Below are positions 6,221 to 36,969 of a stretch of 64,000 nt of DNA, in pieces. The position numbers were made by a program, and so were the translations under genes. The notes under the pieces are model-generated. The model was given only the letters and a program-made list of their open reading frames with translations. It ran no database searches and was not told the DNA's origin. Positions within the stretch are counted from its first letter, which is position 1, and the number at the start of each line of letters is the position of its first letter. The DNA is from Bacillota bacterium (GTDB lineage Bacteria; Bacillota; Syntrophomonadia; Syntrophomonadales; Syntrophomonadaceae), in the NCBI GenBank assembly GCA_029550685.1, contig JAKPGY010000237.1, positions 1 to 64,000 on the forward strand, written 5' to 3'.

Positions 6221-6226
6221 ATTTTT

Positions 6227-6333
6227 CTTCTCCCATCCAGACTGTCACTGTCGGCCCCGGAATTTCACCGGATCCTGCCTTACGGCTCGCGGGCTATACC
6301 GCCGATAGGGAATTTCACCCATCCCCGAAGAAA
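6227..6333 (-). ncRNA. FMN riboswitch (RFN element)
   Basis: Read on the minus strand, the leader holds the conserved RFN blocks in order: CTTCGGGGATGGGTGAAATT, a GGCGGTA block, CCGCGAGCC, GGATCCGGTGAAATTCCGG and GACAGT followed by GGATGGGAGAAG. These build the six-helix FMN aptamer. Its position ahead of ribD-ribE-ribBA-ribH and the downstream terminator imply that bound FMN lowers transcription of the operon. Confidence 0.96.
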
Positions 6334-6356
6334 AATTATCCTATTCAATTGCCTTA

Positions 6357-36714: not shown

Positions 36715-36743
36715 AAAAAAACACCGGACCAAGCCGGTGTTTT
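36715..36743 (-). terminator. Terminator copy A flanking the repeat
   Basis: AAACACCGG / CCGGTGTTT (6-nt loop) is followed by seven T on the minus strand. Its hairpin is nearly identical to that at 36944-36969 on the other side of the repeat. It would stop read-through into cinA. Confidence 0.85.
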
Positions 36744-36930
36744 GAGAATGTCAAAAAAGTTGCTAAAAAGAGATCGCCACGTCACTACGCTCCTCGCAAC
36801 ATTAGCCGTGAACGATAGTGAACATCGGTAGTGCCGGAACGGCCGATGACATACCAGAAGGCAATCTTATGTGTCATTGCGAGCCCCGGAGGGGCGTGGC
36901 AATCTCGAACTTCTAACCATTAATAGACTT
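36744..36930 (-). repeat. Dispersed palindromic repeat, copy 3 (long form)
   Basis: The minus strand of this 187-bp element matches 1-140, with an extra 47 bp at 36798-36844. The extra piece carries GTTCCGGCACT and ACCGATGT, also found in the cluster at 48061-48157. No ORF. Hairpin arms as in copy 1. Confidence 0.85.
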
Positions 36931-36943
36931 CTTTGACAGTCTG

Positions 36944-36969
36944 AAAACACCGTACCAAGCCGGTGTTTT
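36944..36969 (-). terminator. Terminator copy B after the FtsH-like gene
   Basis: AAAACACCG / CGGTGTTTT pair around an 8-nt loop, 11 bp past the stop of the FtsH-like gene. Only four T follow on the minus strand. Near-duplicate of copy A. Confidence 0.75.

Follow-up and report, generated by a model that had tools for sequence, protein, structure and literature searches.

A short repeat with IS1182-type ends lies between duplicated copies of whole terminator hairpins in a Syntrophomonadaceae genome

The DNA analysed here (the window) is a stretch of 64,000 nucleotides from the start of a contig of a Syntrophomonadaceae draft genome. Positions 36744-36943 are occupied by a non-autonomous MITE of 200 bp, unassigned to either strand, with the ends GAGAATGTCAAAAAAGTT and (as reverse complement) CAGACTGTCAAAGAAGTC. 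One minus-strand gene lies on each side, and we take these neighbors to be cinA and a gene for an FtsH-like AAA protease; the sole reading frame running into the element is spurious and antisense to the neighboring gene. An earlier note on this sequence described near-identical hairpins on both sides of the repeat, and folding together with sequence comparison bears this out, placing a left copy at 36718-36743 and a right copy at 36944-36969 (both without strand assignment) that form a target-site duplication of 26 nt with one mismatch. The left copy has an A-tract on its outer side, which is a U-tract for minus-strand transcripts. Folding energies for these two hairpins and for a third at 141-167 are -14.7, -11.7 and -18.3 kcal/mol, values equalled by 0/200, 3/200 and 0/200 shuffled sequences, respectively. 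The minus strand of the window also carries an FMN riboswitch at 6221-6336 (Rfam RF00050).

The third hairpin adjoins a second MITE copy of a shorter form at positions 1-140 (no strand assigned); approximately 12 nt are missing from its CAGACTGTCAAAG end, window position 1 being where the contig begins. This copy was said to run straight into a terminator hairpin, which we read on the plus strand at 141-167 as ACCGCACTGC...GCAGTGCGGT followed by a T-tract. A twin of this hairpin had been predicted to the left of the element, a place that lies beyond the contig end; a search of the 251 contigs of the window genome with up to 3 mismatches returned the ACCGCACTGC hairpin in its one known occurrence only. 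The corresponding site in each of the genus-mates G001, G002 and G003 holds a single related hairpin and no element, and in G003 and G001 the hairpin has to its left a gene that we read as coding for a membrane protein.

The inverted ends of the MITE read GAGAR/CAGAC-TGTCAAARAAGT or near variants, the full forms being GAGAG-TGTCAAAAAAGTT and CAGAC-TGTCAAAGAAGTC, with variants of these as well. The outer five bases are constant within a subfamily and were therefore counted as element sequence. BLAST identified 63 matching pieces in the window genome (G000, a draft of 251 contigs, many of which terminate within the repeat), and the genus-mate G001 (60 contigs, 99% complete) holds at least 38 two-ended copies, with 27 of the 38 fetched measuring 152-154 bp; few matches to the ends were found in G002 and G003. 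The set used for counting consists of 63 fetched copies whose two ends lie on a single contig, drawn from five genomes (G000, G001, G002, G003 and G026). It was obtained from 64 called end pairs after a false pair (L111, 4264-4473) was dropped, counts an insertion common to G000 and G001 twice (L020, L087), and stands beside further copies in G001 and G000 and copies with one end only. These 63 copies span 102-394 bp, 53 of them 150-254 bp, and have no transposase gene of their own because they are too short for one. The repeat is short, multi-copy and bounded by terminal inverted repeats, and target-site duplications at 49/63 two-ended copies complete its description as a MITE.

These duplications consist of a flanking hairpin present on both sides of the element, as the inspection of further copies proposed in the earlier note revealed for 13/19 copies in G000, 31/38 in G001 and 5/6 in G002, G003 and G026 together. 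The paired hairpins are letter-for-letter identical in 23/49 cases and differ by one mismatch in another 13/49, and different insertion sites carry different hairpin sequences. The duplications measure 17-35 nt (median 25, n=49), and their length follows that of the hairpin (r = 0.976, n=44; 44/44 within 2 nt and 40/44 within 1 nt) in the 44/49 cases where a simple stem finder detected one; the junction end is common to both measures, so that only the agreement at the far end is independent. The stem finder missed the hairpin on both sides in 5/49 cases (L076, L083, L088, L093 and L096; L083 has two copies, just one of which was missed). The center of the dyad lies within 1 bp of the center of the duplication in 49/49 cases and coincides with it exactly in 38/49.

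Stems of at least 6 bp starting 0-3 nt from the junction were found at 50/63 left ends and 47/63 right ends, compared with 267 of 20,000 positions drawn at random from these loci, and the presence of a hairpin at element junctions is far beyond chance. The base composition around the hairpins identifies them further: at least 4 T occur in the 8 bases after the right copy in 37/49 cases and at least 4 A in the 8 bases before the left copy in 32/49, so that an outer T- or A-tract is present on one side or the other in 46/49 and on the element-facing sides in 0/49. The outermost base of the duplication is A on the left in 31/49 and T on the right in 36/49. The MITE sits at rho-independent-type terminators, with the whole stem-loop of 17-35 nt on both sides. 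When 16 GAGAG-type ends of the window genome, most of them at contig edges, were compared with 17 CAGAC-type ends, a partner with the same hairpin was found for 8/16 (contig C21 contributes two places to one such pair) and none for the other 8/16.

The 14/63 two-ended copies without a scored duplication are a mixed group, and nine of them show no duplication at all (L021, L057, L062, L063, L069, L073, L075, L077 and L111). By eye, L044 and L080 have diverged duplicates, one hairpin copy of L008 is degraded and L010 is truncated by the contig end, while L003 joins two hairpins whose partners are each found elsewhere. Two MITE copies seem to have swapped flanks among C21:22829-22981 (L003), C21:1-143 (L040) and the end of C181 (L006) in G000, and this exchange appears to reflect genomic rearrangement or misassembly. 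The hairpin copies at L044 (1283-1481) differ in both arms (AGAGGC.../AGAGGCC...) with pairing kept, a pattern that resembles compensatory change after duplication.

Orthologous sites that are free of the element were compared as well. In G001 the site orthologous to 36744, between the same two genes, holds one AACACCGGGCTAAGCCGGTGTT hairpin and no element; its counterpart in G002 was left out as an empty site because it is broken up by a stretch of N and a partial repeat, and that in G003, where the flanks lie on two contigs, was also left out. The comparison of empty sites for which the earlier note had called yields one hairpin each for the 36744 site (G001) and for copy 1 (G001, G002 and G003). 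The right-hand flank of the G001 copy L093 is likewise present in G000 and G002 with one hairpin, a comparison confined to the right-hand side as the left flank in G000 and G002 is non-orthologous, and the G001 copy L086, for which just a downstream stretch outside the element matched in G000, gave no usable empty site. The proposed insertion of the element at terminators, with duplication of the latter, is supported by the 49/63 flanked copies, the 8/16 partnered ends and the empty sites with one hairpin.

Full-length elements with the same properties were found in the IS1182 family. Three IS1182 elements of other Clostridia (L154, L156 and L158) have the same end motif as the MITE and lie between two copies of one hairpin. 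Their left ends are CAGCCTGTCAAA, CAGACTGTCAAA and CAGAGTGTCAAA, their right ends are CAGCCTGTCAAAGAAGG, CAGACTGTCAAAGAACC and CAGCCTGTCAAAGAACC, and the hairpin duplications measure about 20, 24 and 32 nt, respectively. A fourth (L160), with the ends CAGACTGTCGACAAA and CAGACTGAAGACAAA, has a motif related to that of the MITE and a duplicated hairpin of 24 nt. The end motifs are CAGCCTGTCAAAAAAGG (L154), CAGACTGTCAAAAAAGG (L156), CAGAGTGTCAAAAAAGG (L158) and CAGACTGTCGACAAAG (L160), and all four elements are about 1.5-1.6 kb in size. Against NF033551 (cut-off 270 bits), the L156, L158 and L160 transposases reach 411.8-424.2 bits and the decayed L126 reaches 355.4 bits, and the Pfam domains DUF772 and DDE_Tnp_1_6 are present in all four of these proteins. 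A family-mate of the window genome (G019) has a decayed IS1182 transposase gene whose right end, CAGAGTGTCAAAGAACCC, lies beside a perfect hairpin; no left end was recognisable for this copy. The relatives of the G019 transposase in named genomes comprise 13 loci, of which four have a duplicated hairpin (L154, L156, L158, L160), one has two different hairpins (L162), four have a hairpin next to the single end that could be read (L153, L155, L161, L163) and the remaining four fall in none of these classes.

Plasmids provided a further sample, with 10 elements fetched of 30 among the matches listed and 1,779 records containing a match. The hairpin is duplicated, at 19-30 nt, in 5/10 of these elements (L173, L174, L177, L180 and L181). 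Three of them (L174, L177 and L180) have CAGACTGTAGACAAA-type ends related to the MITE end motif, the ends of L173 were identified in part, and those of L181 are not among the ends identified. A different hairpin is seen by eye on each side of L175, L176 and L182, and L178 and L179 fall in neither class. Different hairpins at the two ends would be expected if two targets were used or if copies recombined; the unlike hairpins of L162, L175, L176 and L182 perhaps reflect recombination or intramolecular transposition. Seven elements from the two samples (L154, L156, L158, L160, L174, L177 and L180) are full-length with a transposase gene, whereas the MITE is without one. Some IS1182 members target palindromes, the transposase encoded by autonomous elements with these ends is of the IS1182 type, and the link of the MITE to the IS1182 family is well supported.

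A matching-end transposase was not found alongside the MITE copies in G000 and G001: G000 has one IS1182 gene with other ends, and G001, which is 99% complete with at least 38 two-ended copies, gave no IS1182 transposase match. G000 and G003 have one IS1182 transposase each with the other ends GAGACCACTGAAAAAGT and CAGACTGTGTGAAAA, the first 8 bases of the CAGACTGTGTGAAAA end being those of the MITE, and the IS1182 matches in G002 are all below the cut-off, with other ends in the one examined. Since the search of the window's genus found no IS1182 transposase with matching ends, mobilization of the MITE is deduced from its relatives, and this comparison makes a transposase of the IS1182 family the most likely mobilizing enzyme. 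A tree built from 21 transposases places the 13 rows whose ends are of the CAGACTGTCAAA or TAGACAAA type in one part together with L123, with support of 93/99, which is under the mark of the tree tool, and the two other Syntrophomonadaceae end types form separate branches. L123 was assigned to the CAGACTGTGTGAAAA group with its ends not read, L163 (240 aa) was excluded for being too short, L180 and further loci are omitted, and duplication is proven for some but not all rows of the first group. The Syntrophomonadaceae subgroups with CAGACTGTGTGAAAA or GAGACCACTGAAAAAGT ends resemble the MITE system in their IS1182 transposase and in the palindromic surroundings of several copies, but they lie between or within palindrome arms, whereas the MITE lies beside a duplicated hairpin. 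The IS1182 family is not uniform in this respect because other end types sit inside palindromes. Elements of this kind (L124, L128, L132 and L135) are placed between or within the arms of palindromes of the GGGGACG type or similar and show a different use of the hairpin.

The repeat is a MITE whose ends are of the IS1182 type and whose flanks are duplicated whole terminators, a pattern that is real, general and mostly explained. We consider it probable that this MITE inserts at terminators and duplicates the whole stem-loop because an IS1182-type enzyme attacks an extruded stem-loop at its feet. An IS1182-type DDE transposase would recognize the extruded structure, either a cruciform or a hairpin on single-stranded DNA, the 3' ends of the element would be joined to it at both of its 5' feet, and repair of the gaps would then copy the entire stem-loop to each side. 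Under such a scheme the length of the duplication would be set by the hairpin and not by a fixed stagger. We infer that the transposase reads an extruded stem-loop; the footprint expected of a cruciform does not differ from that of a linear dyad or of a hairpin on single-stranded DNA. Since the T-tract stays with the right copy and the A-tract with the left one, an intact terminator would be retained for each direction of transcription, and judging from the sequence each direction could meet one complete terminator after insertion, which would thus be nearly harmless. It is reasonably likely that these elements represent an IS1182 subgroup with structure-set duplication, in which joining at the 5' feet yields exactly one hairpin of any length and terminators serve as safe havens because a functioning terminator would remain for either direction after insertion.

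The nearest competing account is that a transposase dimer reads linear double-stranded DNA with dyad symmetry and cuts at its edges, so that no cruciform is necessary. The duplications are indeed centered on the dyad and the outer A (31/49) and T (36/49) could represent an edge motif, but variation from 17 to 35 nt in step with the stem-loop is hard to reconcile with a dimer of fixed geometry on linear DNA and no common arm sequence was seen beyond the outer A and T, and we regard this account as unlikely. The long duplications and the TGT ends had first directed attention to an IS1202-type transposase (TGT...ACA ends): a TGTCAA core lies within the MITE ends, PMC10132070 gives target duplications of 16-28 bp for the IS1202 group, and one NF033594 element above cut-off is present in G001. 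TGT...ACA is not outermost in the MITE, however, as the ends reach 5 nt past TGT and are conserved there within subfamilies. In G001 the IS1202-like element, whose left end is lost at the contig edge, differs at its right end and has no clear hairpin next to it, and it is IS1182 elements that match both ends and the hairpin duplication; an IS1202 origin was consequently dropped as very improbable. The IS1202 search gave at least 40 matches in plasmids, and its other G001 match (L099) was checked for similar ends and also dropped. L099, at the start of G001 contig C14, may be a three-gene transposon encoding a zinc-ribbon-like protein, a DDE transposase and an AAA ATPase, names given by reading.

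Two further accounts would remove the duplication itself, and we give each of them an even smaller chance than IS1202. The hairpins could be part of the element itself, or a tandem pair of terminators could have been present before insertion, and hairpins do occur near lone end-like sequences without an element (L114, L115); this is hardly conceivable as the hairpin sequence differs from site to site, and it is refuted at the sites whose element-free orthologues hold one hairpin. The lone end-like sequences (CAGACTGTC...) at L114:700-800 and L115:980-1070 lie near terminator-like hairpins with no recognisable element. False joins at contig-breaking repeats, in assembly or binning, could bring like hairpins together, and the window assembly is fragmented (251 contigs) with many contigs ending in the repeat and one internal copy on C21 joining two different hairpins. 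The same pattern in G001 (60 contigs), G002, G026, IS copies of other Clostridia and complete plasmids makes such an artefact scarcely credible.

Most DDE elements generate a short target duplication of nearly fixed length, and ISfinder records long direct repeats for some IS1182 members. REP/REPIN elements and their RAYT partners are short, multi-copy and intergenic with internal palindromes, and they resemble the MITE in these respects, whereas true terminal inverted repeats and long duplications are features of the MITE. Closer parallels are provided by IS1272 and TnSha1, IS1182-family elements of Staphylococcus which, according to PMC4923244 and PMC5678879, target hairpins by structure and not by sequence. 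The hairpins targeted by IS1272, several of which are confirmed terminators, are reported to be partly deleted with no duplication (PMC4923244) or to be replaced as a stem-loop (PMC5678879); for the hairpin-deleting reaction, attack at the 3' feet is proposed. The MITE shares the family and the hairpin targets, including terminators, but differs from these elements in duplicating the whole stem-loop where they are reported to delete or replace it. PMC5678879 contains a hypothetical pathway (b, Fig. 13) in which joining at the 5' feet would leave a complete stem-loop on each side, and the MITE and its IS1182 relatives fit this proposed outcome. Siguier 2015 is cited in PMC4923244 for IS1182 members that target palindromes, so that this preference is itself already known. 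The IS1202 group shares long duplications with the MITE and differs in transposase and ends, and no target rule was found in the available part of PMC10132070. Among the titles and abstracts listed from the open literature we recognized no report of whole-hairpin duplication by IS1182 elements, and an earlier description in ISfinder or subscription papers is possible; for the core sequence of the repeat, no relevant paper was found among the 20 listed of 905 matching ones.

Here the length of the duplication follows DNA secondary structure, and the copies amount to dozens of naturally occurring footprints left by a transposase that would read structure. This also bears on the mechanism of IS1272, since one family may delete or duplicate a hairpin according to the foot attacked, and structure-set duplication, if true, would be the counterpart of hairpin deletion by IS1272. 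The pattern points to a way in which an element could increase in number while leaving gene ends intact, and it provides a simple rule for genomic searches (hairpin-CAGAC...GTCTG-hairpin). Within the MITE, 3' parts of group II introns (Rfam RF00029) were detected in 4/8 loci scanned (L047:51-134, L051:1231-1314, L052:1109-1192 and L055:1638-1721), near the foot of the internal hairpin of the element, and a sequence common to L005, L006, L009 and L023 may be the other end of the intron.
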